The notes under the pieces were generated by a model. The model was not told where the DNA came from. It saw nothing but the letters and a program-made list of their open reading frames with translations, and searched no databases. Made by a program: the position numbers and the translations under genes. From contig NZ_JACCHQ010000021.1 in assembly GCF_016031655.1 (NCBI RefSeq), positions 1 to 64,000 of the forward strand: 64,000 nt of DNA, in the 5' to 3' direction. Source of the stretch: Bradyrhizobium glycinis (GTDB lineage: Bacteria; Pseudomonadota; Alphaproteobacteria; Rhizobiales; Xanthobacteraceae). Shown piece after piece: positions 18,056-37,482 of this stretch (positions are counted from its first letter, which is position 1; each line of letters starts with the position of its first letter).

Positions 18056-20296
18056 TCATAGAGTCTTGAGATACTCGACAAGCGCTCGCCGCTCGGCGTC
18101 GGTCAATTCTGGTCCGATCACGCCAGGCGGCAACTTCGTTACGTCGGTTTCCTTGCCCTCGAAGGAATGTCCGCGATTACTGTTCCCAAGCAGCGACACA
18201 TCGAAGTTCGTCAGGCCTGCCGCACAGCTCACGGACGATTGTGCTTTGGTAACAAGTCCGACATTGACTGGGTCGAACGCACGGCTGCCGACGCAAAAGG
18301 ACGTCGGCCGCTGGGCCTGCGGTACCAACATGTCTCTCAGCGTCGGAATGGACCCATTGTGCAGATAAGGAGCCGTCGCCCAGACACCGTCCAACGGGCG
18401 CGCCCGGTACTGAGGTTCAAGCGCGAGAACAACTTCGTCTTTGCCCTTGCGGCTTGCCCGCGCCTCGACATAGACCCGCTGATTTTGGCAGTTCTTTCTT
18501 GGCCCCCACATTTGACGCTTGGTTTCATCAGAAGTGCCGTTCGCAATCATCCACTGGTCGATCGTTTTGCCGACCACGTCCATGAGTGCGAGTACAAACA
18601 GAGGATCTGCCCCTTTATCTGCCGGAAGGCCGCAAGCTCCGGCTTTATTGAGGTCATCTGTAGGACTTAATCCGAGTGACTCCGGTAGGTGAACGCGTCG
18701 CGTCGTGAGGACGCTGGATTGTTGGCGGTCGGTCCCGATCGCTGAGACCGGCATCTGGACCACGTTAAAATAATGCCGGCCGCCGATGTCCACCCAATTC
18801 GTCTCGTTCTTGGCTGAGCGATCGGGGTTCTCTAGGCTCCAGAACGAATCTTCCGGCCACTTTTTGTCGAAGGCGGTATCGTTGACCGGGCCTCGGTGGC
18901 ATTCAAAGCAGTGAGCGCGGTAAAGATCGCGCCCCTTTTCGACGAGCTTTTCATCAATCGCCCAGGCCGGGTCACTGCGGAATTTCTCCGCTGCGTCCTT
19001 CCATCGGGGCGCTACGAGCCCGGTGAATTTTCTGTCGCCTGCATGGCCCGCCGAAAAGGGATCGGCGCCGCGAAGAAGCTCTTCGAACTGTGCGATTTCG
19101 GATAGATGCATCGACGAGGCAAAAAGAGGCCGTCCGGGCGCGGCCGCTGTCATATTGATTTTCGCGCTGACACCGAGCGCCTCGCCGGAATTGCGGACGA
19201 GTTCGTTGAGGACAGAGGCGTCATACTGCGCCCAAAGGAAATGCGGCGTGTCCCAGATTGGCGGAAAGCTCACAGGCGCATCGTGCCGGGCGAAGTTGCT
19301 CTTCAGGAGTGGGTCTCGGAGTTCGCCAGTTAGTGGATCGAGCATGTTGGTATAGAAAACCTGGTTCCCGATCCGGTTCAACGCATCAAGTCGACCGAAC
19401 CCTTCATCGAGATGCGCCACTCCCTGTTCCGTCAAAATTCTGTCGGTCGCCGCCTTTTGATTCTTGATCTTTTGGAGTGCCAGCTCGAGCTGGTTTCGCA
19501 GCTGCTTCCGATCGACGCTTTGCCCTTTGATCTGCTCCAGCTTGCTGGCGAAACGCTCAAATCGCCATGGGAAGATCAGCGTGTAGCCAATCGATAGTCC
19601 GATGATTCTTTCGACCTCGCCGAGATTGACCATCGCCGGCCCACCGTCGAACCGTATGCTGACATTCTTGTATTCGAGATGCCCCGTATGACAGGCGGCG
19701 CAGGTTAGTCCGATCTGGTCTTCATATTTGGCACCCGTCGTCGGATCGAGGCCACCCTCGAGGATGGCAAAGCCGACCGGCAAAGCATTCGGATTGTCGG
19801 GCGCGCTTGGAGCCCAACTGCCCCCATTCGTCGCATCGTCGTGATAACCATATGAGGGCGCACTACCGACGAAGTCCTTTGAGCTAGGACTTGGGATGAA
19901 GCCGAGGCGGCGCAGGTAGTCCTGGTCTGTCAAGCTCGTGTAGAAGAACGACAGCTCCGGGCGTTCCAGGGCCAAAAACCACTGATAGGGAACAGGAATG
20001 GTCGCCGTCCCCTGCGATGTGTGGTGAAACCAGTAACGCTGGCGGGGGCTCCAATTTTGCGGCAGCCAATAAGCGCTTTCGATTTTTGATGGCTCCGGCA
20101 GAGTCGCAGGCAGCAATTGAGCGATCAGATTGGCGTCGTTCTTGAGTTTAAGGGCTGCATCGCGAACCCTCTCCGGCGCGAAATACACCAGGGCGGCCGC
20201 CACGATCGCGACAACAACGATTGCAAACAAAAGCCCGGTAATATGAGGCCAGCGCATCACCCAGGAATAAACACGAGAGCCAGAACGTCTCCCCAT
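18056..20296 (-). CDS. Membrane-anchored di-haem cytochrome c protein (RoxA/CCP-like)
   Basis: A 746-residue protein with one N-terminal membrane anchor (about 20-39) and a large periplasmic part. Two haem-binding motifs are visible: CAACH (about 199-203) and CFECH (about 463-467). The layout and the segment PPIWDTPHFLWAQYDAS recall di-haem cytochrome c peroxidase/RoxA-like proteins, but no substrate can be deduced. ATG 20296 is preferred over upstream starts because GGAGG lies 8 nt before it. It is the last gene of a minus-strand run after a patatin-like membrane protein and a mono-haem protein (72 nt gap), suggesting periplasmic redox work linked to a lipid or polymer substrate. Confidence 0.75.
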   Translation of the reverse strand: MGRRSGSRVYSWVMRWPHITGLLFAIVVVAIVAAALVYFAPERVRDAALKLKNDANLIAQLLPATLPEPSKIESAYWLPQNWSPRQRYWFHHTSQGTATIPVPYQWFLALERPELSFFYTSLTDQDYLRRLGFIPSPSSKDFVGSAPSYGYHDDATNGGSWAPSAPDNPNALPVGFAILEGGLDPTTGAKYEDQIGLTCAACHTGHLEYKNVSIRFDGGPAMVNLGEVERIIGLSIGYTLIFPWRFERFASKLEQIKGQSVDRKQLRNQLELALQKIKNQKAATDRILTEQGVAHLDEGFGRLDALNRIGNQVFYTNMLDPLTGELRDPLLKSNFARHDAPVSFPPIWDTPHFLWAQYDASVLNELVRNSGEALGVSAKINMTAAAPGRPLFASSMHLSEIAQFEELLRGADPFSAGHAGDRKFTGLVAPRWKDAAEKFRSDPAWAIDEKLVEKGRDLYRAHCFECHRGPVNDTAFDKKWPEDSFWSLENPDRSAKNETNWVDIGGRHYFNVVQMPVSAIGTDRQQSSVLTTRRVHLPESLGLSPTDDLNKAGACGLPADKGADPLFVLALMDVVGKTIDQWMIANGTSDETKRQMWGPRKNCQNQRVYVEARASRKGKDEVVLALEPQYRARPLDGVWATAPYLHNGSIPTLRDMLVPQAQRPTSFCVGSRAFDPVNVGLVTKAQSSVSCAAGLTNFDVSLLGNSNRGHSFEGKETDVTKLPPGVIGPELTDAERRALVEYLKTL

Positions 20297-20368
20297 AACA
20301 ATTACCTCCATCAATCGTTTCATGCGTCCAGGCGAACCGGGAGGCTGCCGTAAACGGGACGGCGTCTG

Positions 20369-21724
20369 TTACTTGTTCAGCAGTCGGCTATTGATGAAGG
20401 CCACCACGTCGGCCGTCTCGGCTGCCGTGCGCCGAGTTATCGTCGCCGCCGCCGGGCCGCTCTGCAAGAACGACGGGAACCAACCGAAGTTGCGAACATT
20501 CCAATCTTCTTTCGGCCAGACCGCGCGGTTGACGCCAGGCACCGCGAAGTTTGGAATCTTTTTGGCGAGTGGCTGCGCTGTCTCGGTGTGACAGCTCACA
20601 CAATCGGTATTGAAGAAGTGGCTCTTCTTCGGATCGGCAATGGTGTTGACGATCTCGATGACGCGGCTGTTCGGCACGTTGCCGTCGATGAACTCGGAGG
20701 TTGAAACGCCCTTGCGCTCGGCGGCGGCCAAAGGCGGATTTTGCAATGCCGCGTGTCGACAGGTGATCGGATTTCGATTGTTCGTACCCGGTTGCGGGAC
20801 CACGTGTTTTCCGCCGATAATGCTGAACATCTGTGCTACGTGCAGGCCATCAAGCGTCGGGCCGGGCACGGGTATCAACCCAGCTTGCGGAACCCTCAAC
20901 ATCGACACGAAAATCCAGGGTTCGGGCGGTGCGATGCCCATCACTGCCATCGAGTTGAGACGCTGCGGCGACAGATGCTTCTCAACCAAGGCTTTGAGCG
21001 CATCGCGAAACGCCTTCGCCGATGCCCCTACAAGGCCCGGATGCACTTTCAGATCACCGGCGGTCGAGACTTTGACATTGCTGAAATGTCCGGCTCCAAG
21101 CTGATCGCGCAAGGTCGCTACGTCACGAACGATCGCCTTGAAGGCTTCGTCGTCCGGTTTGAATCGCGGGAACGGTGCGCAACCGTCCAGAGGCGGATCC
21201 GCGTCGAGAGTGAAGCTGAAGATAAGGTGGCCCGCGGTGTCGTGAACCTTGAAGCCGTCTGGCCCATTCGTTACCGGCTGTATGATGAGGCGGATTTGCG
21301 GTTGCCGGCCAAATTGGGCTATGATATCGGCCGACAATCCCGGCGCGCCCGGATCGATACGGATCCCGGCTACAAACCAGGCGTCGATCTTTTTAACGGC
21401 ATCGGGCAACTGAATGTGGCGTACACCCGAGTCCGGCACACCGGGGCGCTCTGGCTGTTCGGCGTTGGCAATAAAGCGCGCGAAGTCCGCGTCGGAAAAC
21501 AGCCGCTGGGGCGATCCTGTGGGGCCGGAGAGATCGGATACCGCGATCAGATTGGCGAGGTCGCCTGCCGACTTCGGCGGAGGAAAGAGAATGGACACAT
21601 CATTTGGCGCAAGCGGCTTTGATGCGGCTTGCGCCGGAGCCGTTGTGACATCCAAAGTTGATGCGAACATCGCTCCCGCCGCAAACAGTCGTGCGAGCCG
21701 CCGACGAAACATAGATCTATGCAT
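20369..21724 (-). CDS. Secreted mono-haem cytochrome c-like protein
   Basis: A 451-residue exported protein. ATG 21724 is chosen because GGGAGGGG sits just upstream and a standard signal peptide follows: basic MHRSMFRRRLARL, a hydrophobic stretch, and an AQA-A cleavage site near residue 34. A single CVSCH haem motif lies near 375-379, with the remaining 72 residues completing a cytochrome-like C-terminal domain. The 340-residue N-terminal part has no motif I recognise. It lies 119 nt after the patatin-like gene and 72 nt before the di-haem gene on the same strand, so electron transfer to that partner is plausible but inferred. Confidence 0.7.
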   Translation of the reverse strand: MHRSMFRRRLARLFAAGAMFASTLDVTTAPAQAASKPLAPNDVSILFPPPKSAGDLANLIAVSDLSGPTGSPQRLFSDADFARFIANAEQPERPGVPDSGVRHIQLPDAVKKIDAWFVAGIRIDPGAPGLSADIIAQFGRQPQIRLIIQPVTNGPDGFKVHDTAGHLIFSFTLDADPPLDGCAPFPRFKPDDEAFKAIVRDVATLRDQLGAGHFSNVKVSTAGDLKVHPGLVGASAKAFRDALKALVEKHLSPQRLNSMAVMGIAPPEPWIFVSMLRVPQAGLIPVPGPTLDGLHVAQMFSIIGGKHVVPQPGTNNRNPITCRHAALQNPPLAAAERKGVSTSEFIDGNVPNSRVIEIVNTIADPKKSHFFNTDCVSCHTETAQPLAKKIPNFAVPGVNRAVWPKEDWNVRNFGWFPSFLQSGPAAATITRRTAAETADVVAFINSRLLNK

Positions 21725-21843
21725 TTCACCCCTCCCTACCATTGGTAGTCCCTGTAAGACAAAAAACTTCAAACATCAGATGTCAAAAGCGGCGATCGGC
21801 CGCTACGCTCGCCATGGCAATGCGAGCAACGGGAGCAACCTCC

Positions 21844-24800
21844 TCATTCCTCACCGTAGAATTGGCTTTGCAAGGTCTTGAGTTTCGTCGGATGCAACGC
21901 CTTCTCGATACAGCTGAGGAACATCTCACCCCTTGCATTGACCCGCTCCCTGTCAACCGGCTCATGTGCCATGTCCGTTTGCAAGGCGCGCACCGCCGTC
22001 CAGTCGTTCGCACGATCCTTGAGCAACTCGAACAGTGTTCGGCGATTGTTGGGCGGAGATAATCGGTCGTCCCTATACCGGTGCAAGCGGAAGTGGGCGA
22101 AAGTGACCTTGGCCGAGATCTTAGCATCCCTTAACGCGTCGGGTAGCGTCAGCAGATCGAGTCCTTCGAGCTCGCCCAGCTGCTGCATTTGATCCTGCGC
22201 TTCCTGATATTGCTCGCGGCCGACCAGTTGATACATTCCTCGCGGGCGAAACAGCCAACCGTCATCCGTTCCGGATTGGTTGCCGAACAGATTGCCGTCG
22301 TAGCCAAGGACGAAGTTGGCCAATTCCTTGGGATGGTTGAGTAGTGAACTAATGTCGACCACGGGCTTGTTTGCGGCCGCAAGCTTTGCGTTATTCTGGT
22401 CGATGCGATCGCGCCATTTCTGTGGGAGTTGTGAAGCCGCGCTGTACGAGAAATTCTCGCTGCTGCGCGTAAAGTCGGCGCTGTCGTAGGACAATGACCC
22501 AAGAATATAGGCCAGGATACGAGGATCTGTCTCCTGGACGCGATCCCATTCCTGCAACAAAGCCCTGACCTGCTCGGCCTGATAATAAGCCATGTAGCTC
22601 TTGCGATATGGCGGAACCGGTAGTGGCGCCGGTGAATGGCCCTTGCTCGATTCGCTTAACTGGTGCTCATAGCTTGAGACTTTTTCCTGATACTTCTCAT
22701 AACCGCGCTCTTGCAGCCAATTGCTCTCATAGCAAGCAAGCAACGGCTGCGGCTTAATCTTTGAAGTTAGTTGATATTCCTTGGCCAGCTGGCCGGCGTA
22801 GGCAGCCCGTGCGAGCTTGGCGTCCTTGAGCGTTTCAAATGCGGACGCGACCGATCCATTCAGAAGATGGAACAACTTCACCTGCAGGCAATCGGCGTTG
22901 CTCTGCCTCTCGCGGGACTGATCGAAGTCATCTTTCGGCACGCAATCCCAAAAGCGACCGCTGCTCAATGAGATGATATCCTCGGTCTTCTGGGACAACG
23001 TCCAGCCGAGTGGAAGGCTATAAAACAGGCCTGTTATGTCCGTCCGGCCGAACGTCGGAAAGCGCTGCACACTGGGGGGCACTTCGGTGTCGTGTCGGCG
23101 ATCAATGCTGGTTGCCTGATTGAGCGCGACATAGGTTCGGGAGGTTCGCGTGCTCAGAAGAGCGCGTACCGGCTCCATGAGCTCGCCGAACATGAATGAC
23201 CCATGATCACCGAATTGTCCGCTCACGAGAGACAGCAGGTAAATCCGGAATTTTGGTGCGTCGGAGGTGCCCTTGATGCTGTTAAGCTTCTCAATGAGAC
23301 CGAGCGCCGTCTCGATCCCGGAGTTCTCCACATATCCGCCGTCCACCAGGCGCGCCTGCGGATTGTTGGTTATGCAGTCATTCCTAACCGAGACGGTCGC
23401 CGCCGGTGTAACCCACGGAAATCGCGCGCTCGTGAAAGCTGCTGTGCTGAGCGGAATACGAAGCGAGTGGCTCTTGACCTTTTGGTCAGCCCCGGTGCCC
23501 GCGCGCTCTAGCGCGGCAAGAACACACAGGTCCGTGTCTTTCGGGTGCAGCGGATCGAAATCGAAGGGGGAAATGACGGCCCGTTTGCCGCTGCCGGCAT
23601 CTGTCGTGTTGAACAACAGCGCCGGCATATTTTTATCGGGCGCCCAATGGGACTGATAGTCGCCCTTAAGCAGATTGGTTCGATCGCTGGCACCCTTGTG
23701 GTTGCTGAGCATCCTGTCAACGGCGTTCTCCAAGGTGTATTCGAGAAAGCGCGCGCGATCGAAGGCGGGGATCGCGACCGGTGAAAACATCTGAGTGAAA
23801 TCAGTAAACAGAAATCCGGCAACCAAAGGCGACAAAAAATCGGTTGCCAAAACGCTTGCAGCGCGCTGCTCGACCGGCCCAGGAGCATCAATATCTTGGA
23901 CCCGCCCCAACCCGGCAAGGAAATCCGCGATTTTGGGACATGTCTTTTCGTCGATGGCATTTGAATCAAGGGACGCATCTCCGGCGTGGAGCGCAGCGGC
24001 AAAGATTGCCGAACCGACGCTGCCCCCGGACACGCCGCTTATCGCAAACAGATGTTGGCGAAATGCCGGACAGAGATCCTGCAGCCGGGCAAGAAACCGC
24101 GCCGCGTTATTCGCGGCATAGATTCCTCCGCCTTGAGCCGCTACAACGAATACTGGATATTCGCCAAGCCTCTTGGCTTCGTCCACCCGCGGCTTTTGTA
24201 AGAGCCACTCGCGGAACGCGGCGGCCGCTGCCGTGCGCGCCTTTTCCGGCGCACTGTTTGCTTCAGAGAGGGTACGCAGTTCGTGGTTGTCACCTCCCAG
24301 TAGGGAGGCAAGCAGGAACAAGCCGCCAAAGACAGCCGGAATAAACGGGAACGCAAATCTAATCGTCAAGAGAGCAAAGTGGACCGTGAGACCAATGACG
24401 CAAACCGCAAAGAGAGCGATCACGCCGAACGAGCCGAGAAATTGTGCGAGCGTATCCGGCAGCAGGAGGAATGCTGCTGTCAATATCACGATGCCGCCGA
24501 TCGAGAGCGCGAGAAACCTGTAGCGGATGAAGTAAGCGTTGTTGGCGCGGCTCGCGATATCAATCGAGCGATCGCTTGATCCTATTCGCCAGGTAAATAC
24601 CACGAAACAGGCGAGCATGATCAGCATGGCGATCGCGAGGATGAACAGCATGTTCCGCTCAAACGCGAGCGCCTGGTCCTGAATGCGGAAGATACTGCCG
24701 ACTTCCTCGACCTCCCCAATCTTTCGCGCCGGTCGCGAGGCGAATTGGCCTGCTGTGGCGGCGATGATCGGCAGTGCTCCAAGTAGGACGGGAGCAAGTC

Positions 24801-25068
24801 TTATATAGAAGGCCAGGCGCCCCGAAGACTTAGGGATTTGCCGCACGGATGCTGTTGTGAGCTGAAACGAGCTTGCCCAAATTGTTATGGCAATCAGGCC
24901 CAGGGCAGCGAACTCCCTGAACGTCGCCCAACCAAGGTCGTCGGCGGCTATCCGGTAGAGCTCCTGAATCTGATCTGGCAGGTAGAGCAATACTGAGATA
25001 GCTAACGACAGAACAATTATCCATCTAAGATTGCGAAATAAGGCAAACAGCTGCTCGCGCACAGTCAT
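21844..25068 (-). CDS. Polytopic membrane protein with patatin-like lipase domain
   Basis: A 1074-residue protein. The first 260 residues contain about six hydrophobic segments (roughly 15-35, 55-75, 88-108, 138-160, 185-205 and 215-258). They are followed by a patatin-like phospholipase domain with a glycine-rich AAQGGGIYAA (about 310-319), the nucleophile elbow GVSGGS (Ser347) and the catalytic DGG (Asp576). The C-terminal 400 residues are unassigned. ATG 25068 has GGAG 8 nt upstream and is preferred to an in-frame GTG at 25086. Patatin domains hydrolyse acyl esters of lipids. It is first in the minus-strand cassette with two cytochromes and is divergent from a DUF2235 hydrolase, an uncommon grouping. 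Confidence 0.8.
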   Translation of the reverse strand: MTVREQLFALFRNLRWIIVLSLAISVLLYLPDQIQELYRIAADDLGWATFREFAALGLIAITIWASSFQLTTASVRQIPKSSGRLAFYIRLAPVLLGALPIIAATAGQFASRPARKIGEVEEVGSIFRIQDQALAFERNMLFILAIAMLIMLACFVVFTWRIGSSDRSIDIASRANNAYFIRYRFLALSIGGIVILTAAFLLLPDTLAQFLGSFGVIALFAVCVIGLTVHFALLTIRFAFPFIPAVFGGLFLLASLLGGDNHELRTLSEANSAPEKARTAAAAAFREWLLQKPRVDEAKRLGEYPVFVVAAQGGGIYAANNAARFLARLQDLCPAFRQHLFAISGVSGGSVGSAIFAAALHAGDASLDSNAIDEKTCPKIADFLAGLGRVQDIDAPGPVEQRAASVLATDFLSPLVAGFLFTDFTQMFSPVAIPAFDRARFLEYTLENAVDRMLSNHKGASDRTNLLKGDYQSHWAPDKNMPALLFNTTDAGSGKRAVISPFDFDPLHPKDTDLCVLAALERAGTGADQKVKSHSLRIPLSTAAFTSARFPWVTPAATVSVRNDCITNNPQARLVDGGYVENSGIETALGLIEKLNSIKGTSDAPKFRIYLLSLVSGQFGDHGSFMFGELMEPVRALLSTRTSRTYVALNQATSIDRRHDTEVPPSVQRFPTFGRTDITGLFYSLPLGWTLSQKTEDIISLSSGRFWDCVPKDDFDQSRERQSNADCLQVKLFHLLNGSVASAFETLKDAKLARAAYAGQLAKEYQLTSKIKPQPLLACYESNWLQERGYEKYQEKVSSYEHQLSESSKGHSPAPLPVPPYRKSYMAYYQAEQVRALLQEWDRVQETDPRILAYILGSLSYDSADFTRSSENFSYSAASQLPQKWRDRIDQNNAKLAAANKPVVDISSLLNHPKELANFVLGYDGNLFGNQSGTDDGWLFRPRGMYQLVGREQYQEAQDQMQQLGELEGLDLLTLPDALRDAKISAKVTFAHFRLHRYRDDRLSPPNNRRTLFELLKDRANDWTAVRALQTDMAHEPVDRERVNARGEMFLSCIEKALHPTKLKTLQSQFYGEE

Positions 25069-25855
25069 CGCGTCATCTCCGTTCACACGTTCTTGGAGAT
25101 TGCTGGCAAGCCACTGAGATGGGCTCTGGTATCGGGCATTCGCGCCAGCTCACATTGAAATGTTTTCAGCCCGTAGCATACGGGCGACTTGAAAAAATTG
25201 TCGTTCAGGGCACGCTCGCAGGTAGCGCGTCAAATATTGTGCACTTCCCTATAGGAGTGTGCCGGCTTTGTCGATATGTTCTGCGCGGCGATCGGAGAGT
25301 TTTCCTCCGAATGGCCTCCACTTGTTTGCATTGGAGCGCAAATCACTTGCCGACGTATGACTCCTCTTGCGGCGGCTTGCAAAGTCTGACCGCAAACGCT
25401 CAGTACGAACCGCACCGTTGCCTGTAGGAAGAATACGCGCCTGCCAGGCACGGGGTGCGTGATGATCCGCGACGAAGCTGCGATCGAGGGCCTCGATAAG
25501 ACGTCTTGCTGCTGGAAAACAAGACCTTGCGCTGTTGTTCAGCGCGACTCCGTGCGTAAACGCAAAAAACCGGCGCCGCCGTTGTTCTAGTCTGTGGAGA
25601 TACGGACTTTGGTCAGGGTGATGTGTTGCACTCCCGCCGCCGGCATCGCTCAGAATCACAGCGATTCCACTTGGGATAGAGAATGGGTTGCTGCGACTCG
25701 CCTTCAGTATCTGCTGTCCGAGCTTGCGTCGCCTATGTTGCGATTGACCCACAAGCTGAGAGTTTGTCGTGCGCCTGCCAGCGCCATGTTTATGTTTATA
25801 GGTGCGCTCGGCTGTCAGAGTTCTCTCTGAGGGCGGCGCCGTCGGGAGCCGTTCC
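25069..25855. other. Divergent intergenic region of the lipase/cytochrome cassette
   Basis: About 790 bases between the divergent patatin-like and DUF2235 genes. It must hold both promoters. No convincing gene, hairpin or palindrome was found. Confidence 0.45.
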
Positions 25856-27157
25856 ATGAATGTTTTTCGCTGGGTTGAGCGCATCGGGCACACGATCGGG
25901 CTGTTACTCGCGATCGTGGCGATTGTCGCCATCGGAGTGATCGTCGGTCGTCCTGCAGAGAAGAGTGGCAATCAACCGAACTTTGCAGGCGCAGAGCAGC
26001 AGCAAAAGCGCCTCGCAGTCTTTCTCGACGGGACATGGAATAGTGTCAACAGTAACACCAACGTCTGGCGAATGCGGGCTCTCTGCGCGAGCAAAAGCGC
26101 CGACGGCAAACCTCAACTCGTCTACTATGAGGTTGGGGTTAACGGGTTTTTGGGCGGTGTTTTCGGTCAGGGACTCGATGAGAATATTCGCCTAGCGTAC
26201 GAGTGGCTCATCGAAAATTACAAAGAAGGCGACGAGATATTTATTTTCGGCTTTAGCCGGGGGGCTTTCACAGCCAGAGCCTTGGCTGGATTGGTTGCGA
26301 TCAATGGGGTCCTGAAAGCTGGCTCTCCGATCGGGGTGACAGAGCTCTTTGATCGCTACAAGAAGGGCGATGAGGAGAGCATTTGGCGATTGAAGGATAT
26401 CGCAGCGACGGGCGAGACCAGCAAGTTGACGCAACAAGAAAAGTGGCTTCTCAAATATTCGCAGCCGGCCCAAGTAAAGGTAATGGGTGTGTGGGACACC
26501 GTCGGTTCCGTCGGTCTAGCGGCGGGGAACATTCCGGGCATTAGCCGTTCTCAGTTCGACTATCTCCAAACAGGACTGCGCATCCATATTTTAAACGGCT
26601 ATCACGCCCTTGCTATTGATGAGCATCGCAACGACTTCGCTCCCACGCTTTGGGATGTTCGTCATCCAAAGGATCCCAGCGCGGTCATCGCAAAGCCGCG
26701 CCCGCTTTCCGCAGTTGAGCAGCGTTGGTTCGTAGGTGCCCATGCCAATGTTGGGGGCGGCTATCAGACCGATCTTCTCGCCCAAGCTCCGCTGCGTTGG
26801 ATGATGAAGAAAGCAGAACTGCACGGTCTTTCGTTCCGATCTGAGGTCGATCTTGATGGAGACGCCGTAACAACGCCGATTGCCGACTCGTATACGTCCT
26901 TTGGTTCTGGTCTCTATGCCTGGTTCACTTCGCCCCTGTATCGGACCGTCGGCAGCGAGCCGAGTGTCAGGGAAGATGGCAGCCATATCAGCGTCAATGA
27001 GACCGTCGACGCTAACGTATTTAAGCGATGGCGAGCTGATCCAACGTATCGCCCAGCGAACATTGTCGAGTGGGCGCAGCGTAAGAAGGTTGATCCAGCT
27101 CAATTTCAAACCTCCGTGCGAGCGGACGACCCCCGCGTCGAGGTGCCAGACCCTTAG
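25856..27157 (+). CDS. DUF2235 alpha/beta hydrolase with N-terminal membrane anchor
   Basis: A 433-residue protein with an N-terminal hydrophobic segment (about 12-31), then the DUF2235 fold known from T6SS phospholipase effectors of the Tle1 type. Characteristic pieces are AVFLDGTWN (about 54-62), the nucleophile motif GFSRGA (Ser134), GVWDTVG (Asp214) and HALAIDEHR (His250), so a complete catalytic triad is plausible. ATG 25856 is preferred because GGGAG lies about 8 nt upstream. The membrane anchor argues for a resident envelope enzyme rather than an exported toxin. It diverges from the patatin-like gene, so two putative lipid hydrolases of different folds face each other. Confidence 0.78.
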   Translation: MNVFRWVERIGHTIGLLLAIVAIVAIGVIVGRPAEKSGNQPNFAGAEQQQKRLAVFLDGTWNSVNSNTNVWRMRALCASKSADGKPQLVYYEVGVNGFLGGVFGQGLDENIRLAYEWLIENYKEGDEIFIFGFSRGAFTARALAGLVAINGVLKAGSPIGVTELFDRYKKGDEESIWRLKDIAATGETSKLTQQEKWLLKYSQPAQVKVMGVWDTVGSVGLAAGNIPGISRSQFDYLQTGLRIHILNGYHALAIDEHRNDFAPTLWDVRHPKDPSAVIAKPRPLSAVEQRWFVGAHANVGGGYQTDLLAQAPLRWMMKKAELHGLSFRSEVDLDGDAVTTPIADSYTSFGSGLYAWFTSPLYRTVGSEPSVREDGSHISVNETVDANVFKRWRADPTYRPANIVEWAQRKKVDPAQFQTSVRADDPRVEVPDP

Positions 27158-27807
27158 GTAGCATTGGTGAGGGCGCCAGCTCACCATATTCCGCTGAGAG
27201 GGACCAATACGGTACGTGAACTCTCCAGAGTGAATAACCAAATAGTTCAGCCCAGTTCCTGAAATCGCTTCTCGGAATCGTGGTGTAGCCGCGAATGATT
27301 CTTTTGACACTTACCGTCTGCAAGCCTAGCCAGGCTACCTGGGGGCGGAATTTTCGATGAGTGCCGAGTACGGACTTTGGCTCTTCCTCTTGCGAGAGAT
27401 TACCAGGACGAGCACGAGCGCTAGGTGGGGCTGCTTCGTTTGAAGCGTCCCGAGTAACTCGTGTCGGTAGATAGTAAGCCGCGTCGCCCCAAGAAAAGCG
27501 CGACGGCTCGGCGGAGCACGGGCTTATTTGAGTGGCGGCAAGCTTGCGGATGTCGACCAGGAGTGAACGCAAACGCAGTGTCTCCGAATTGAACTGCTGC
27601 GCAGGTGCGAGAAAGTGAGTGGCAATTTTCGGCGTTGCGGCTCACGAAGCGGCGTAGTGGTTGCATCGATTGAGAAGAACTACTATTGAGTTTTGTACTT
27701 TTCTCTTTCTAAAAAATCTAAATTTAGGTCCATCACCCCGCGGGGCGCAAATGCCGTCCAGCACGGTTGGTTGAAACGCCGGGGCAAGCTGGGCCGAGGA
27801 GGGGCAC
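27158..27807. other. Intergenic, AT-rich toward the 3' end
   Basis: About 650 bases with no recognised gene. The last 130 bases are AT-rich (around 27680-27730) and probably contain the promoter of the following fusion gene. No precise promoter is claimed. Confidence 0.4.
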
Positions 27808-29703
27808 TTGGCGACGAGATCGAATTCAGCCCGGCAGATTAATCTCAGCGCGATAAAGGCGGAGCTTATCTACGAGAACGTGATCAAGCGCCTCGACCTT
27901 GAGCAGATATCTCGTTTCTTTCAAAAGATGCCAACCCACTTCAAAGGCGCGCGCGTCGCCTACACTGCGAGGGAGGGCATTATTATCAGCTTTAAGACGC
28001 TGAAAGAGCGCTACCCTGAGGATTATGTTTCTTCTTTTTATCGGATACTTGTCCTGTTCAAGATTCACCGGCAGAATATTTTTTCTGATCAGAACCTCCG
28101 AGCGCTTTTAGGCGATTTCGAGCATCTCAAACAGCAGGAGAACATTGCTCAGTTCGTTATCTTTTCCGAAGGCGTGAGAGAGGTTTCTTCTCAAGCTATT
28201 TCTCTTCTAAAAAGCCATGACGTTCATGTCGTATTTCTTGATGGCCGGACGCTGGGGCAAGGCCACGTATTAAGCAGTTTTGTCTTCGACAACAAATTGA
28301 CGGAGGTGCATAACCTTCACGTCAATCTGGTCAGTGATGAGATCGTCAAGCGACTCAAAAAGCTCTTTCATACTGTGCTTTCCGACATTGCGGCTCCAGT
28401 TTATGATAAACTCTACGGTAGCACGAAGTTTGCTACCGAGCTTGCGATGAGGAAGGAGGAGAGTCTTGTCGACCAGATCATGTCAGACCTAGATTTGGAA
28501 CGCCGGCAATCGACTCAGCAACTTATCGCTGTCGATGTTGGGACCGGAACAGGTCGGCATGCCTTCCGTATCTCGAAATACTTCTCGCGTGTTTATGCGT
28601 TCGATTTCTCCACGCACATGATAAGGGTGGCTAAGGAGAAGAAAGTCGCGTGCGACGATCGACGCATAGCCTTTTCCGTTGCCGACTTCGAATACGAGGA
28701 GGTGGACGGCGAAAGCGACTTCGCAGGAAAAGTGGACTTCGTCTGCGCAAGCTTTGGAATGGGCAGTTTTGTGGAGGACACGCCCAGAATGCTTCGGCGC
28801 TTCCATGAGTGGCTGAAGCCCGGCGGAGCCGTGTTGTTGAGTTTCTACAATTCAAACACGATCGTCGAGAGTATGAAGCCAAACTGGAGGGACACCTCGC
28901 TGGCGGCACACATAGACGCCGATCGACAGACGGCCCAAGTCGGGCTCGAGGATATGACCTTCTACATTTTCTGCAAGCCCTATCAACCACAAATGAAAGA
29001 GCAAATTAGCGGCTTGTTTGAGATCCGAAGTATGATCTCATATCCTTGCATCACAGCTATCCTCCCGAACAGCATGTTCGACTTAAAAAATGCTAAGGAC
29101 TATTTTTCCCATTTAGATGAGCTTCTGATAAGAGACGACTCGTACTTTTATGGTCACTATGTTCTCGTTTATGCGGTCAAGAGAGTCGACGCTTCGGGTT
29201 ACGAACGCGTTCGGTCGTTCTTGGCATCGAGGCAAATAGCATGCGAGACCTTACGACACCCCGCGGTATTTCGGATCCGAGATGTACGCAGAGTGCTGAA
29301 TTTGAAAGACAGTCAAATGGCCAAGACGGTCATCTTCTCGGTTGGTAAGCAAAAGCAAGACGGCATGCCTCGCGTCGCTATCGCTGTTGTGCCGGGAGAC
29401 AAGGAAGTCGCAAAGGAGGAGATTGCTAGAGAGCTTGGCATGTCAAAGAACTTGGTTAATCTGGCTACCCACGAGCAAATCAAGAGGATGGGGTTCGTCC
29501 TAGGTGCGGTCTCGCCATTTGGTTTTGAACAGCACAACGCTAACTATTTCATAGACGAGGCTTTCGAGGGGTCGAGTGAAGACTATGTGTACATGGGAAG
29601 CGGGGACAACTTTCAAACGCTCAAGTTGAGAAGGAGTGATTTCTTGGAGTTGACAAAGACCTATACGCGGCTTCGCGCTCAACGTCTGAGATCGCCAGAT
29701 TAG
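27808..29703 (+). CDS. Three-part protein: unknown domain, SAM methyltransferase, YbaK-like deacylase
   Basis: The TTG start at 27808 has a strong GAGGAGGGG just upstream. Residues 1-200 form an alpha/beta domain I do not recognise; the stretch FVIFSEGVREVSSQAISLL faintly recalls Mrr-type nucleases but lacks visible catalytic residues. Residues about 215-460 are a class I SAM methyltransferase with motif I VDVGTGTGRHAF (242-253), FDFS and LKPGG. Residues about 465-620 match the YbaK/ProX aminoacyl-tRNA editing fold: AKTVIF (505-510), LGAVSPFG (565-572) and YMGSGDNFQTLKL (595-607). I know of no described protein with this combination. Roles in modifying an aminoacyl-tRNA or in small-molecule synthesis are guesses. 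The gene stands alone between the DUF2235 gene and IS debris. Confidence 0.72.
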   Translation: MATRSNSARQINLSAIKAELIYENVIKRLDLEQISRFFQKMPTHFKGARVAYTAREGIIISFKTLKERYPEDYVSSFYRILVLFKIHRQNIFSDQNLRALLGDFEHLKQQENIAQFVIFSEGVREVSSQAISLLKSHDVHVVFLDGRTLGQGHVLSSFVFDNKLTEVHNLHVNLVSDEIVKRLKKLFHTVLSDIAAPVYDKLYGSTKFATELAMRKEESLVDQIMSDLDLERRQSTQQLIAVDVGTGTGRHAFRISKYFSRVYAFDFSTHMIRVAKEKKVACDDRRIAFSVADFEYEEVDGESDFAGKVDFVCASFGMGSFVEDTPRMLRRFHEWLKPGGAVLLSFYNSNTIVESMKPNWRDTSLAAHIDADRQTAQVGLEDMTFYIFCKPYQPQMKEQISGLFEIRSMISYPCITAILPNSMFDLKNAKDYFSHLDELLIRDDSYFYGHYVLVYAVKRVDASGYERVRSFLASRQIACETLRHPAVFRIRDVRRVLNLKDSQMAKTVIFSVGKQKQDGMPRVAIAVVPGDKEVAKEEIARELGMSKNLVNLATHEQIKRMGFVLGAVSPFGFEQHNANYFIDEAFEGSSEDYVYMGSGDNFQTLKLRRSDFLELTKTYTRLRAQRLRSPD

Positions 29704-30102
29704 GCTCCCGTTACGCCCCGGGCAAGTGGGAGCTAGTTCGCCGTTGCGTCCGCCAAGCCATGGTCCGCGTCGGAGTAACGCAATATCCGGCAGGGCTCGG
29801 CGTCACAGACACAGCCGAGCTCAAGCCAGATCTCGTTGATCCCTTGATCCCTGTGCTAACATCAGTATGGACACCGCGCGCTGTTGGGCAAGGTTCATCG
29901 CATCGTTATGAAATGGTATGGCGCGCCAGTCGAGGAGGCATCGGCGGTGCGGTCGGCGGCTGGAAAACCGGGTATTTCGATGGGAACTATGTGTTCGACG
30001 AGGCCGACCCCTGGCAGTTTGCCATCCAGCAAGGGGCGTGGGACGCTGGCGACAGGCTCGCGGATGATGATGCGGCGAAACCTGCTGACCTTGCCCCAAG
30101 TT
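29704..30102. other. Interval before IS debris, no gene assigned
   Basis: About 400 bases. Frames on both strands are long but carry no motif I recognise. They may be flanking parts of the mobile elements that follow. Confidence 0.35.
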
Positions 30103-30356
30103 TTATCCAGGGCCATTGGATTTGCCCAGTTGGGCGGTGGTAGCGACGGGAGCTGGCGCGGAGCCATCGGCATAGCGCGGCGCCAGATCCCGGCGCGGGT
30201 GGCAGGTGAAGGCGAACTCGGAGGGCGTCTTCCATCCGAGCTGTGAGTGCGGTCGTGTGTAGTTATAATCGGCGCGCCAGCATCCGAGCGCGACGCGGGT
30301 CTGAGCCAGCGACGCGAACAGCGTCTCGTTCAGCAATTCATCCCGAAGCCGACCGT
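30103..30356 (-). pseudogene. IS3-family orfB, C-terminal fragment
   Basis: The minus strand reads NGRLRDELLNETLFASLAQ and then YTRPHSQLGWKTPSEFAFT, the typical end of an IS3-family OrfB integrase domain. The fragment begins abruptly near 30356 at the codons for NGR. The preceding OrfB codons (QAMQNGFIESF) are found at 31487-31546 on the same strand, beyond an IS110-type element. The orfB gene therefore appears split by a later insertion. Confidence 0.75.
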
Positions 30357-30437
30357 TGATGGGGAAGACGGCCCCGCTCCCTCGGAGCCGGCGATATACT
30401 GCCGATGCACGGAATCGCTAACAGGAGCCATTGACCA

Positions 30438-31225
30438 ATGGAAGCCGCGACAATTGGGTTGGACATTTCGAAGCACGTATTTCACGTCCATGCAGTTGAC
30501 AGCAAGGGCCAAATAACCAGTCGCCAACGCCTCCGGCGACGCTAGGCGAGATCGTGTCGTTCTTCTCCGCGATCGAGCCGTGTCTGGTCAGCATCGAAGC
30601 CTGCGCCACCGCTCACCACTGGGCACCCGAGATTCAGCGGTTTGGACACGAGGTGAGATTGATTCCGCCATTCCGCCTGCCTATGTAAAACCGTATTGGA
30701 TGACGAGGCCCTGGCGTTACCAGCCAATGCTCGTCTGGCACTCGCCGCTCTCGTGAACCACCTGAAGGAATTGGATCAGCAGGTCGAGGCCATCGAGCGT
30801 GAGCTGGCTCTCATGCAGAGAACTAGTTCGATGGCGAAGTTGTTGTCCTCCATTCCCGGCATTGGTCCCTTAACGGCCACGGCTCTCGCTGCGACCGTGC
30901 CGAACCCGACAATGTTTCGCTCCGGGCGAGAGTTCGCGGCCTGGCTTGGCCTGACACCTAAGCAGAATTCAACTGGCGGGAAGGATCGGCTGGGTAGGAC
31001 AACAAAACAGGGCGATTCCTATCTCAGGCATTTGCTCGTGATCGGAGCACGTAACGTCGTACGTACCCAAAGGCACGGTCCAGGGCCGGATGCGGCTGGA
31101 TCGAAGCCCTGCTTGAACGGCGTCGGCCCATAGTGGTCGCCATCGCCGTTGTCAACAAATTGGCCCGGATCATCTGGGCAATGATGACCACCTGGGAATT
31201 CTATCGCCCGAAGCTCGCGGCCTGA
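30438..31225 (+). pseudogene. IS110-family transposase, internally deleted and frameshifted
   Basis: The start reads MEAATIGLDISKHVFHVHAV, the DEDD-type N terminus of IS110 transposases. A stop or shift follows near 30545, and SFFSAIEPCLVSIEACATAH continues in the next frame. Around 30690 the text jumps from AYVKPY to the C-terminal domain, omitting the middle of the protein. The C-terminal part is good: LLSSIPGIGPLTATALAATV, FAAWLGLTPKQNSTGGKDRL and a final WEFYRPKLAA. IS110 elements make a target-guiding bridge RNA from their non-coding end; here the enzyme is broken, so activity is unlikely. Confidence 0.82.
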
Positions 31226-31486
31226 CTTTCCGCGTATGTTGGCCACCTTATGGTGTGAGGGCAAATGACAGCATGATGGACACCGGGGGAGCTGGGGACC
31301 GAGCAAGCCCGAAGAGCTTTAAGCGCAACAAGCGCGACCCGTTGATGAGGCCTCGATCCGTGATCTCCATCAGGGCCGGCGGCCATGGCATCGGTCGCAC
31401 TAACAGGCCGTATACATGAACGCACCCGACCGGTATCCAAAGTATGCTGCCAAAAATCCCTTGCATCCGCGGGGCCGTCTATACAT

Positions 31487-31546
31487 GAAGCTTTCGATGA
31501 AGCCATTCTGCATGGCTTGCCCGAAGCGATATAATGCCAGGCGACG
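31487..31546 (-). pseudogene. Upstream piece of the split IS3 orfB
   Basis: The minus-strand codons YRFGQAMQNGFIESF match the OrfB segment that normally directly precedes the NGRLRDE block found at 30356. The fragment is short and the sequence on either side diverges. Its value is in marking the left side of the insertion that split orfB. Confidence 0.55.
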
Positions 31547-31947
31547 CGGCACCGATCGGCCCGGTTGCTGGTAAGTTCGGTGCCGGGAGAGCGTCGGCCG
31601 GCATGCGATCGGCAAAGCTGCTTTGCGGTGCCTTTTCAAACCGCCCTGATCACCTACATCGCAAGAGCCTTCCTATTGGCCATGCTTGCCAAGGCATAAT
31701 CATGGTCCGCCAGATTTGAGTTATCCCTTGCAATTCAGTTCGATCTTAACACGCTCTTTGGCTGCACTTAGGTCGCTGCGGTCCTTCGCGGCCATTTAGC
31801 GCGAGTATCAGCGTACTTTTCGCAATTGTCGATCCCGATAGGCCTCACCACACCAGGTAGGTATCGATCCACTGATGGTGCCGTATTGTAGACGACGAAG
31901 ATCGCATTGAATCTGAAACGCGCTGAAAAGCGCGGGCGAGGTGCGCA
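31547..31947. other. Interval upstream of the kamA-like gene
   Basis: About 400 bases without a recognised gene. Apart from a GAGGTG ribosome-binding site just before 31948, nothing regulatory could be placed. Confidence 0.45.
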
Positions 31948-33042
31948 ATGGAAACCGCAGCTAGTCAGCTGGATTGCAGAGCACACGAGTTGAAGTTCAT
32001 CGAGGAAACTCGCGTCGTAAGCGAGAGTGAACTGCAAGTTAACAACATCACGCCTTATCATGTCACAAAGTCTTATCGCGAACAGATCGTCAAGAGCGGC
32101 TACTACGATCAGCTGAAGTACATTGTCGAGCCCTCAATCCGAGAGTTCGGCAGCCCAGGCACCTTGGATACGAGCGGCGAGCACGACAATACGGTCGTGC
32201 CGGGACTCCAGCACAAGTACGCCCAAACCGGCTTATTACTGGTCACGGAACGCTGCGGTTCATATTGCCGTTACTGCTTTCGAAAGCGCATTGTGGGGAA
32301 AGTTTCGGATGAAATCGCACCAGACTTCGGTCGGGTCGCGCAATATATTGCTCGCCATCCTGAGATGACGAACGTACTCCTTTCCGGAGGTGACCCGTTC
32401 GTGCTCAGCACGTCCAATCTGAACAAGATCGTCGACCATCTGCTGCCAATAGAGCATTTGAAGTCGATCAGATTTGGCACAAAAATGCTGGCCTATGCGC
32501 CAAAGCGGTTTGATGACTCCGCTCTACCGGCGCTATTCCAGCGTATCCACAAGGCGGGTAAATCCCCAATCATCGTCGCGCATTTCGATCACGTAGGTGA
32601 GATCTCATCCGGCGCGGAGCGCAAAGTACGCGCTTTGCGAGCACAGGGCGTGCAATTCCTTAACCAGTGCGTGCTTCTCGCCAAGGTCAACGATGATCCC
32701 GAGATATTGGCTGCGACGTTTGCCAAATGCCACGAAATCGGAGTGCGGCCCTACTACTTATTTCAAGCGAGGCCGGTGAAGGGCGCGTCCCACTTCCAAG
32801 TTCCGCTGGGGCGCGGACTAGAAATTGTGCGCGGCATCAACCAACGTCTGAGCGGGATTGAGAAGACATTTAAATACATCATGTCTCATTACACAGGAAA
32901 AATAGAGATATTGGACATAGGACAGGATGGTCGTGTGTATATGCGATACCACCAGGATAAGGTTCCCGAGAAGATCGGTAAGATCTTTTCCCGACCGCAC
33001 GTCGTGACAGCCTGCTGGCTTGATGATCTGCCTGAACAATGA
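31948..33042 (+). CDS. KamA-family radical SAM aminomutase-like protein
   Basis: A 364-residue protein with the radical SAM cluster motif CGSYCRYC (Cys103, Cys107, Cys110), LLSGGDPF, and a C-terminal GKIEIL segment that may hold the PLP-binding lysine, as in lysine 2,3-aminomutase relatives. Family enzymes move an amino group from alpha to beta carbon using SAM, a 4Fe-4S cluster and PLP. It is shorter at the C terminus than classical KamA and the substrate is unknown. Start at ATG 31948. A MaoC-type dehydratase begins about 120 nt later in the same direction, then TesB, which would fit a beta-amino acid/acyl-CoA route by inference. Confidence 0.82.
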   Translation: METAASQLDCRAHELKFIEETRVVSESELQVNNITPYHVTKSYREQIVKSGYYDQLKYIVEPSIREFGSPGTLDTSGEHDNTVVPGLQHKYAQTGLLLVTERCGSYCRYCFRKRIVGKVSDEIAPDFGRVAQYIARHPEMTNVLLSGGDPFVLSTSNLNKIVDHLLPIEHLKSIRFGTKMLAYAPKRFDDSALPALFQRIHKAGKSPIIVAHFDHVGEISSGAERKVRALRAQGVQFLNQCVLLAKVNDDPEILAATFAKCHEIGVRPYYLFQARPVKGASHFQVPLGRGLEIVRGINQRLSGIEKTFKYIMSHYTGKIEILDIGQDGRVYMRYHQDKVPEKIGKIFSRPHVVTACWLDDLPEQ

Positions 33043-33165
33043 GATCTGCCGCACGCGCTCCAGCCCACAGGCTCGGAGCGAGTGCGGTACGCCCGCCGCC
33101 CCACGAAGCGCATTCAAGTTGAGCCGCCGCCGGGGCGCCCTTGTCTCAACTGTAGAAAGGCTCAG

Positions 33166-34026
33166 ATGCCCCTCGACTATCCCGCTGCACTAAACCTAAG
33201 GACTTGTGGAGCTCGCTATTCCTGGACTGACCGGGAGGTAATGCTCTATGCGCTTGGAGTGGGCATGGGCTCAGATCCCCTTAAGGAGGAGGAGCTACAA
33301 TTTGTCAACGAGGCGTTTGCAACGTCGAGGCCATTAAAGGTGATCCCGACGTTTGCTTCCGTGTGCGTTTGGGGCGCACGCCCCGGAGTCATTGACCTCA
33401 ATCGCGTCATGGTTGTTGACGGCGAACGTGACCTTACGTTTCACAAGCCGATGCCCGTGGCGGCGAACGTGACGGCGGACGCCCGTGTGAGAGGAATTTA
33501 TGATAAGGGTAAGGACAAAGGCGCGATCATTCAGAACGAGGTGGTGGTCAGAGATAGGGGCGGCGACAAGATCGTCACAATCCTCTCGTCGACCTTCGCA
33601 AGAGGTGACGGCGGCTTTGGCGGGCCATCGGAGGGGATGCCCGAGCCGCACCAAGTGCCCCGCCGAGCACCCGATAGATCAATGGATATCCCGACCCGAC
33701 CTGACCAAGCCCTAATCTATCGTCTTTCTGGCGACCGAAATCCTTTGCATAGTGATCCGGAGTTCGCCTGTCGAGCCGGCTTTCCAAGGCCCATTCTGCA
33801 CGGAATGTGCACGTATGGCCTGACCTGCAGAGCCGTCCTGCAGAGCTATGCCGACTACGATCCGTCTGCCTTTCATCGTCACCGCGCCCGCTTTTCGTCG
33901 CCCGTGTTCCCGGGAGAAGTTGTTACCGTCAATCTTTGGAAGGACGGTAATTCGATCTCATTCGAAGCTTGCGTAAAAGAGCGTCGGGTTACGGTCGTCA
34001 AGAATGGGCAGACGGTGCTACACTGA
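33166..34026 (+). CDS. MaoC-like double hot-dog dehydratase/hydratase
   Basis: A 286-residue protein with two hot-dog halves. The C-terminal half carries the hydratase-2 motif LSGDRNPLHSDPEFACRAGF followed by RPILHGMCTYG, with the catalytic Asp/His pair in this loop. The ATG at 33166 is preferred because AAAGG precedes it and the family begins there (MPLDYPAALNL). Relatives add water to enoyl-CoA or act on similar thioesters. It lies between the KamA-like and TesB-like genes on the same strand, though 730 nt separate it from tesB. Confidence 0.82.
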   Translation: MPLDYPAALNLRTCGARYSWTDREVMLYALGVGMGSDPLKEEELQFVNEAFATSRPLKVIPTFASVCVWGARPGVIDLNRVMVVDGERDLTFHKPMPVAANVTADARVRGIYDKGKDKGAIIQNEVVVRDRGGDKIVTILSSTFARGDGGFGGPSEGMPEPHQVPRRAPDRSMDIPTRPDQALIYRLSGDRNPLHSDPEFACRAGFPRPILHGMCTYGLTCRAVLQSYADYDPSAFHRHRARFSSPVFPGEVVTVNLWKDGNSISFEACVKERRVTVVKNGQTVLH

Positions 34027-35617: not shown

Positions 35618-36306
35618 GCTTGCGCAGTGCGGGGAAAGCCTGGCTTGAGCGAGCGAGTGAGAAGTGGCCCGTCCATGCTGCTTGCCAGCGTGCCTTCGCG
35701 CGAACAAAGGAGTGGCTCAACGACCATTTGATGCCTGGAAAATCACATCCTCGATACTCAGGCGACTGTCGATACGGTCTTCCCGACGCTCCGGATCTTT
35801 CATTCTGCGATGAAGTCTGTGGTGTTAGGACCTTATTCCATCCATAAACACATTCGCGGTGCCGTTGGCCAATCCATATCGGCAGGGCAATGCCTGACCA
35901 TGCGCCTGAGCATTGCACCATCGTACGGAGGCCCGGTACAAACCGTAGTGTTCATCGGCCAACTCAGGCCGCGCACTGGCTCGGTTGAAGTGCTCACAAC
36001 GCTTTTCGGTTTGAAGACGTCGTAAACAAGACTGACCTTCGCTACCTTGTCGTCATTGGTCCAAGTGATTGGCTGGGACATGATCCTCGCTAGGCTGACT
36101 GTCGCCCGAATGCTTAGCTCGTCAGCTCTGAAACTACTAAACCCGGCAGTTGTTACGTCGGTCTCGGGGCGCTTCAGTGTTTGCTGCGGAGGGCTGTGGC
36201 CGCCGGGCACGAATCAGACCGGGGTCTATCCAAGCGCAGAGTTTTGAGAAGGGCGCCCGAGAGAGGAAAAGGCGAAGGCGCAGTATGGCCCAAGATGGAG
36301 ATTTCT
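35618..36306. other. Intergenic, nothing identified
   Basis: About 690 bases with short competing frames on both strands (about 71 aa plus, 125 aa minus). None could be linked to a family. Confidence 0.4.
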
Positions 36307-37482
36307 ATGCTCACAGCGACAGGTTCGGAAATCCCTTGGGCGGGACCTCCATTCCCAAAGTCGGAGTACGATTATCGACAGCAGAAGGTGCTTGAAGCGG
36401 TAGCGCGCGCCGAACTTGATGCAATTGTGGTTACCGCTATCGGCCACCTCAGATATCTCACTGGCTATCATGGATTTGGCGGGTACTTCGCTCCGTTCCC
36501 GTTGATTCTAGTACCGGGATATGCCCCGGTTCTCGTTGTAAGAGAGTACGATGCCGAGGCTGTCCGCGCCGAAGGATGCGTCGATGAGGTCGTGTGTTAT
36601 AGACACCCTCGCGATGTTGCCAAGACCTGTGCTGAGGTTCTTCGCCAGCATCGGCTGCAGGATCGGAGAGTGGGGTTCGAACTCGGATGTTGGAATCTGG
36701 CGCCCGCCGATGTGCGTGCAGTGCAAGGACTGTGTCCAGGCATGAAAGTCGCCGACGGCTCCAATTTGGTTGCGTCAGTCGCGGCAGTCAAAAGCGCGCT
36801 TGAGCTCGATGTGATGCGTCAAGCAATGGCGATAACTGATCTCGCAGTGCGCGTGTTTCGGAACTCGGTTCGCGAAGGCGTGAGCGAAACAGAAACGTAC
36901 GAAGCCATAGTTGGAGAAACTAGCAAAGCTGGCGGCGAAATATGGCGATCCGTTACTCTCGTGTTCGGTGATCGGACGAAGATGCCGCACGGTGTCCCGA
37001 CCCCACACGCACTCCGAAACAATGAACCCGCCATGATTGAGATCGGCGGCGTCAAGCATGGCTATGCCGCAGGGCTGGTCCGCAGCGCGGTGCTTGGTCG
37101 GCATCGTGAGGCCGAATCGTTGCACGCTCTTTCGGTTGAAGCGCTCGAAGCTGCCATTGGCGCGATTAAGCCTGGGGTAAGCGCGACGACCGTGGACGCC
37201 GCCGCGCGGAAGGTGATTGAGCAATCTGGACGCCCGCGCGCCTTTCGCCATCGTACCGGGTACCAAAGTGGCATCCACTGGACAGAACGAGGGAACCTCA
37301 GCCTGGAGCCTGCCGCAGAGGAAATTTTACAGGCGGGAATGACCTTTCATCTTCCCATCATTCTGTTTGGCGAAACCGGTCATCTGTTTGGCTGCAGCGA
37401 GCATGTGGTCGTCACAGACTCTGGCGCGGAAGTGCTCAGCCGTACAGATCACAACCTATTTCATGCTGTGGGCTCCACATGA
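36307..37482 (+). CDS. M24 hydrolase of the creatinase/ectoine-hydrolase type
   Basis: A 391-residue two-domain protein with the pita-bread fold of M24 peptidases. ATG 36307 is preferred because GGAG lies 6 nt upstream. In metal-dependent members two Asp ligands sit in DxG...GYxSDxTRT. Here the segment is IEIGGVKHGYAAGLVRSAVL, so the ligands are missing. This agrees with creatinase and ectoine hydrolase (DoeA), which work without metal. It probably cleaves a C-N bond in a small amide or ring rather than a peptide. Its stop overlaps the start of an M20 amidohydrolase (ATGA), indicating coupled translation. Confidence 0.8.
   Translation: MLTATGSEIPWAGPPFPKSEYDYRQQKVLEAVARAELDAIVVTAIGHLRYLTGYHGFGGYFAPFPLILVPGYAPVLVVREYDAEAVRAEGCVDEVVCYRHPRDVAKTCAEVLRQHRLQDRRVGFELGCWNLAPADVRAVQGLCPGMKVADGSNLVASVAAVKSALELDVMRQAMAITDLAVRVFRNSVREGVSETETYEAIVGETSKAGGEIWRSVTLVFGDRTKMPHGVPTPHALRNNEPAMIEIGGVKHGYAAGLVRSAVLGRHREAESLHALSVEALEAAIGAIKPGVSATTVDAAARKVIEQSGRPRAFRHRTGYQSGIHWTERGNLSLEPAAEEILQAGMTFHLPIILFGETGHLFGCSEHVVVTDSGAEVLSRTDHNLFHAVGST

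Follow-up and report, generated by a model that had tools for sequence, protein, structure and literature searches.

The features at the locus are collected in Table 1. Within the window (the whole stretch of DNA that was analysed, 64,000 nucleotides) the forward strand carries an open reading frame encoding a protein of 631 residues, here called P0001. The frame begins with TTG, has an upstream in-frame stop at 27772 and runs for 631 codons without a stop; the other five frames over the same interval contain 13 to 35 stops each, and at this composition a run of 632 open codons would arise by chance with a probability of about 9e-15. A Shine-Dalgarno-like sequence lies directly 5' of the TTG. 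The initial annotation had described one 631-residue frame in which an N-terminal domain, a methyltransferase and a YbaK-like domain follow each other in that order; the frame is borne out by these observations and the order proved right when the Pfam matches were placed on the protein. The motifs quoted at that time are also present in the translation (VDVGTGTG at 242, GAVSPFG at 566 and YVYMGSGDN at 593). No convincing promoter or terminator was seen around the gene: one promoter-like site was found, inside the gene, where 2.0 were expected, and five terminator-like sites where 3.3 were expected. Rfam gave no match at E ≤ 0.1 over 25500-33500, and no tRNA genes were found within the window.

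Table 1. Features at the P0001 locus, with their positions in the window and the basis of each assignment.
Feature	Position	Strand	Basis
DUF2235 / Tle1-like catalytic domain protein, left neighbour	25802..27157	+	PF09994 1.8e-68
P0001-containing stretch with no plasmid or phage DNA match	27158..29728		E ≤ 0.01
Shine-Dalgarno-like GAGGAGGGG	27796..27804	+	read from sequence
P0001, 631 aa, TTG start	27808..29703	+	open frame
N-terminal domain without family match, residues 1-190, predicted helix-strand-strand-strand-helix-strand-helix-strand	27808..28377	+	low-confidence models
Class I SAM methyltransferase, residues 191-460, most CmoM-like among five yardsticks	28378..29187	+	Pfam, NCBIfam, PDB sequences, yardsticks
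INS/YbaK-type aminoacyl-tRNA editing domain, residues 461-631, K506 and G566-P570	29188..29700	+	PF04073, alignments
5'-truncated traH (conjugation gene), right neighbour	29729..30143	+	PF06871 2.1e-20; blastn match from 29729
IS110 transposase remnant	30696..31133	+	PF02371 2.2e-26; NF033542 below cut-off

The DNA of the DUF2235 gene on the left of P0001 matches Bradyrhizobium plasmids at 70-74% identity (blastn). On the right, an intact traH would have 207 codons and the match to the copy found here begins near codon 56; the stop codon of P0001 (29703) therefore sits where traH is broken off. The IS110 remnant beyond it aligns with the family models only in their C-terminal part, and the DNA upstream of this remnant likewise resembles IS110 elements carried by Bradyrhizobium plasmids. 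The DNA matches in the plasmid records (the best 40 of 232) fall in three places, the DUF2235 gene as far as 27157, traH starting at 29729, and the IS110 region; the approximately 2.6 kb between the first two (27158-29728) has no plasmid match at E ≤ 0.01, and 27150-29730 has no phage match at the same threshold. Of 34 plasmid records matching the region, 24 are from Bradyrhizobium, the top ten matching mainly via the IS110 element; judged by these matches and those of the DUF2235 gene, the genome is probably that of a Bradyrhizobium. The block from 28001 to 30000 has a G+C content of 0.507, the lowest among 32 blocks of 2 kb, and the first- and second-position G+C of P0001 (0.53 and 0.35) is below that of all eleven neighbours compared; at the third position the three parts have 0.57, 0.62 and 0.60 (0.60 overall), and the eleven neighbours 0.57-0.71. 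None of the repeats listed for 26900-30200 brackets P0001. In our reading the stretch was acquired and became joined to what is left of a conjugative element.

None of the neighbouring genes that could be named has a role in translation. To the left, two adjacent genes on the reverse strand encode cytochrome-c-type proteins, one (18056-20323) containing a cytochrome c domain like that of RoxA (2.2e-18) and the other (20369-21772) barely above the Pfam cut-off (21.7 against 21.3 bits); the 1080-residue product of 21844-25086, on the same strand, has only a sub-threshold patatin match (23.3 against 27.7 bits) and finds nothing in NCBIfam at E ≤ 0.1. To the right, all on the forward strand, 31948-33042 encodes a KamA-family radical SAM protein (196.5 bits against a subfamily cut-off of 199.2) that scores far under the EpmB and lysine aminomutase equivalogs and adjoins MaoC and TesB genes. 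Overlapping genes for M24 and M20 peptidases occupy 36181-38642; the M24 protein is most like the ectoine hydrolase DoeA, below cut-off, and the M20 protein matches the amidohydrolase model TIGR01891 above cut-off, with CpsA and DoeB2 next and both below theirs. A frame of 635 residues at 61123-63030 has no Pfam match at 1e-5 and overlaps a 530-residue frame on the opposite strand.

The YbaK/ProX-like domain proposed for the C-terminus had been made subject beforehand to a profile search as the test that might refute it. The search did not refute it: tRNA_edit (PF04073) matched residues 484-614 with an E value of 2e-15 and 57.4 bits against a cut-off of 25.5, over positions 1-122 of the 123 in the profile. 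The GxxxP loop is a motif of the INS superfamily, and in P0001 it is intact (G566-P570, within GAVSPFG) and aligns with the loop of YbaK and of 3op6. K506 is invariant with the lysine of the three other tRNA_edit proteins of the same genome (7.8 Mb in 83 contigs) and aligns with the corresponding lysine in 3op6, YbaK 2dxa, PRORSD1 8huz and E. coli YbaK; this INS-superfamily lysine (Lys45 of ProXp-ala) is described as strictly conserved and essential in the available text of PMC10164551. The four tRNA_edit matches of the genome at E ≤ 0.001 are P0001, with 61.5 bits, and three short frames of 160-183 codons which score higher (87-93 bits). By sequence, the closest proteins of solved structure are 3op6 (1.3e-4), chain F of 8huz (PRORSD1; 2.6e-4) and YbaK 2dxa (0.0051). 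The domain reaches only 42.6 bits with the model for YbaK proper, the Cys-tRNA(Pro) deacylase (TIGR00011), where the equivalog cut-off is 153.25 and a different protein of the same genome scores 178.1. Judged by its sequence, the C-terminal domain is a member of the INS superfamily and not YbaK proper, and aminoacyl-tRNA as its probable target is well supported by family membership and the essential lysine.

With the trans-editing deacylases of this superfamily (YbaK, ProXp-ala and others) P0001 shares the full-length domain, the lysine and the loop; unlike them, it carries the domain fused to a methyltransferase and to an N-terminal domain of no matched family. According to the available text of a 2024 review (PMC11295145), INS members other than the INS domain of ProRS are single-domain proteins, while it also mentions fusions of ProXp-ala with ProRS and a C-terminal domain in plants. 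ProRS with its inserted editing domain likewise offers a multi-domain setting, and a ProRS model is among the profile matches of the P0001 editing domain; however, P0001 has no synthetase domain match in Pfam.

It is clear that the central part is a class I SAM methyltransferase, as had been claimed. Methyltransf_25 of Pfam matches residues 242-340 (E 2.2e-14, 54.3 bits against a cut-off of 27), the class I methyltransferase models of Pfam together cover approximately 238-369, and the SAM motifs are kept, with VDVGTGTG at its place and D266. The core also matches UbiE/MenG and BioC models. Five E. coli enzymes were used as yardsticks and compared with residues 186-460 by Z score and 300 shuffles; CmoM, a tRNA wobble methyltransferase, gave a Z of 18.4, followed by UbiE (10.8), UbiG (8.1), CmoA (4.0) and BioC (3.5). 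With the core only, CmoM and UbiE were near equal (10.3 and 10.5), so the excess of CmoM over UbiE stems from outside the core. When the segment before the core was compared with CmoM, 5 of 300 shuffles were as good, against 58 to 300 of 300 for the other four enzymes; the segment after the core scored best with CmoM but within the shuffles, 39 of 300 reaching its score. Furthermore, the CmoM model has 13 matches in the genome; P0001 ranks second among them, and it alone has a match that starts at profile position 7 and includes the extension. Y18 and D73, which belong to the SAM site of CmoM, correspond to Y203 and D266 of P0001, and YGxTK before the core and FYN after it are further likenesses between these two class I enzymes, although CmoM is a single domain of 261 residues and P0001 is built of three parts over 631. 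P0001 is nevertheless not CmoM proper; it scores 41.0 bits with NF008264 where the equivalog cut-off is 366, and the UbiE/MenG model of NCBIfam is level with it at 41.1 bits. In the search of PDB sequences CmoM (4.8e-5) was outscored by phosphoethanolamine methyltransferases, which we take to be the plant and nematode proteins (best 3.2e-12).

The CmoM-tRNA interface comprises 18 residues in the available text of PMC10516636. Four of the 18 are identical in P0001 (K22, Y150, R209 and Y247, as K207, Y347, R407 and Y451), ten are changed (for example R26 to E211 and W124 to F321) and four fall in a gap. The two proteins are 26.7% identical, and random aligned columns keep at least four contacts in 54% of draws; the shared contacts are at chance level and were dropped as support for a tRNA substrate. 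The suggestion in the initial annotation that the protein acts on an aminoacyl-tRNA therefore stands for the C-terminal domain and only weakly for the methyltransferase, where the putative link to tRNA is a weak one that draws on the overall CmoM score, the extension before the core and the co-resident editing domain.

Since two tRNA-linked families are found in one chain, a shared substrate is favoured. Our preferred reading, which we offer tentatively and at less than even odds, is that P0001 is a horizontally acquired, probably intact, tRNA-directed methyltransferase/deacylase. Both enzyme domains may be active, because K506 and the SAM motifs are retained. The INS/YbaK-type domain would clear the 3' end of the tRNA of a mischarged or non-protein amino acid, the distantly CmoM-like class I SAM methyltransferase would modify a tRNA nucleoside or a tRNA-borne group, and the N-terminal domain would serve in nucleic-acid binding or in contact with a partner. 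The general chemistry of each domain is more certain than their joint purpose.

For the methyltransferase a small molecule may instead be the acceptor, such as the amino-acid-derived product also suggested in the initial annotation, because the UbiE/MenG model scores level with CmoM and the phosphoethanolamine methyltransferases score higher. P0001 could then be a self-protecting enzyme that makes or detoxifies an amino-acid-like compound, with the editing domain clearing whatever of that compound is misloaded on tRNA. This would agree with the matches of the core to UbiE/MenG, BioC and phosphoethanolamine methyltransferases, with CmoM contacts kept no better than chance and with the KamA-family (aminomutase-like) gene 2.2 kb downstream; a precedent in the available text of PMC11295145 is ProXp-x, which removes the non-protein amino acid Abu from tRNA. 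We nonetheless consider such a role somewhat unlikely: no biosynthetic gene adjoins P0001, the KamA gene is separated from it by the traH and IS110 remnants, and the CmoM-like extension before the core would be left unexplained.

The distribution of P0001 bears on whether its three parts belong together. In its own genome P0001 is the only match to itself at E ≤ 0.001. A search with the whole protein found no full-length relative in 296 genomes of the family (E ≤ 1e-3), where the matches listed cover one domain each; besides its own genome, no match was found in any of the 265 genomes of the genus that were searched (E ≤ 1e-12), nor in 297 genomes of the order (E ≤ 1e-10), nor, at E ≤ 1e-8, in two further classes with 48 and 78 genomes searched. 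Residues 186-631 were searched in 398 genomes of the phylum (E ≤ 1e-6), and here too the matches listed cover one domain each; three of them, with frames of 576-601 codons, look like ProRS. The genome sets of family, genus, order, class and phylum overlap, and single-domain matches (methyltransferase or YbaK only), seen in 50 of the 296 family genomes besides its own and in 8 of the 398 phylum genomes, were left out of the count of homologues. Residues 1-218 gave weak and partial matches in the 385 genomes of the class at E ≤ 1 (22 genomes besides its own; best 0.005, over 51 residues), and these were set aside as chance. By tblastn there was nothing at 1e-5 in 72,556 plasmids or in 50,697 phage records, and the N-terminus has two plasmid matches, one to a 'DNA methyltransferase' of Gordonia (E 3) and the other to a relaxase of Campylobacter (E 2), neither better than chance. 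Peptide-pattern scans, which detect only relatives with short peptides in common, gave one methyltransferase-only match and nothing else in viral contigs; of two such scans of genome contigs the first returned no relative and the second 16 loci, all only within residues 452-620. The phmmer scoring recovers gap-free altered copies of P0001 down to 25% identity (20 of 20), the first-look filter used on the genomes being uncalibrated. In three genomes of one related genus, genes for a class I methyltransferase and for YbaK are neighbours within 3.3 kb of each other, on opposite strands.

Over its full length P0001 thus stands alone in the collections searched, and any function given to it is a prediction; the single occurrence lowers the chance that it is part of a conserved system. 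The initial annotation knew of no described protein with this combination, and none came to light in full-text literature searches from which subscription journals were largely absent; among the papers listed, no title or abstract start describes a fusion with a methyltransferase. P0001 is composed of known parts in a combination not found described, and is possibly a one-off. It may be that recombination during acquisition joined the domains into a one-off or decaying fusion with no selected joint function; the absence from all searches of a relative of the whole protein, and likewise of its N-terminal part, would fit this, as would its position against a truncated traH and near an insertion-sequence remnant. 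We regard this as doubtful, since 631 codons have stayed open against the chance given above, catalytic residues are kept in both enzyme domains, a Shine-Dalgarno sequence precedes the gene, and the third-position G+C of all three parts is inside the range of the neighbours, though that of the first and second positions is not.

The N-terminal domain had been described as an unassigned alpha/beta domain, which agrees with the secondary structure predicted for it. Residues 1-222, searched alone, drew no match from Pfam at E ≤ 10, and a SIS-domain identity was rejected, the best PDB sequence match having an E value of only 0.59. The single-sequence models are poor, with a mean pLDDT of 36.7 for full-length P0001 and 46.3 for residues 1-165; both predict, at low pLDDT, a helix at 31-40, strands near 49-53, 57-61 and 81-85, a helix at 94-111, a strand at 115-121, a helix at 128-136 and a strand at 139-144. 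A second look by structure with the N-terminal model gave a best Z of 5.5, with none of 1,000 chains reaching 8, and a best Foldseek E value of 0.053. Among the 50 best structural rows are 19, with Z of 3.9 to 5.5, which we take to be restriction-endonuclease-like (12 RPB5, 3 EndoMS/NucS, 2 XisH, EcoT38I and Avs3); acetyl-CoA carboxylase, lipase, STAS and Cas1 are found among the others. Retroviral integrases among the 50 matches listed for the full-length model superpose at 13-24 Å rmsd, and these matches were ignored. A resemblance to Mrr (PF04471) was noted by eye, RILVLFKIHRQ..NLR in P0001 against RIKVQVKRW..NLR in real Mrr, and was rejected: a home-made profile of 8 sequences gave -0.8 bits and rank 183 among the 1,527 scored of 2,002, inside the shuffles. 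K85 is on a plausible strand, and L83 is at the position where the nuclease motif wants an acid. A catalytically dead nuclease-like fold for residues 1-190 is only a guess, because of the low Z, the Foldseek value, the result with Mrr and L83.

A match to Mad2 of the MADS defence system (PADLOC, 1e-17) was discarded as generic; it covers only profile positions 252-404 of 492, the own genome has 58 such matches (P0001 being the 25th) and all 14 control genomes match. With Mad2, P0001 shares the methyltransferase core only. A defence or toxin-like protein, in which an N-terminal PD-(D/E)XK-type nuclease controls, or is controlled by, the methyltransferase and deacylase, would suit the mobile-element scar, the predicted order of strands and helices in residues 31-143 and the 19 structural rows, but is improbable given the confidence of the model, the Z values and the unrelated folds among the rows, the Mrr profile, L83 and the generic nature of the Mad2 match.

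The tRNA-directed reading that we prefer is itself weakened, because the CmoM score is far under its cut-off, the contacts are at chance, no homologue was found that might show conservation or context, and no neighbour that could be named has a role in translation. A more specific form of it, which at present we think improbable, would have one chain work on one tRNA at two sites, with CmoM-like methylation in the anticodon region and INS-type editing at the aminoacyl end, so that modification is coupled to proofreading; the N-terminal domain would then be an RNA-binding module derived from a nuclease fold, and P0001 would, to our knowledge, be the first member of the INS superfamily fused to a modification enzyme.

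Editing enzymes and tRNA-modifying enzymes have been studied as separate layers of quality control. If the tRNA-directed reading is true, a natural chain with both activities would be a direct and testable case of coupling between them, and possibly a tool in which a deacylase is combined with a methyl mark. Even as a one-off, P0001 is a combination of domains unrecorded in the literature searched, set in the scar of a mobile element.
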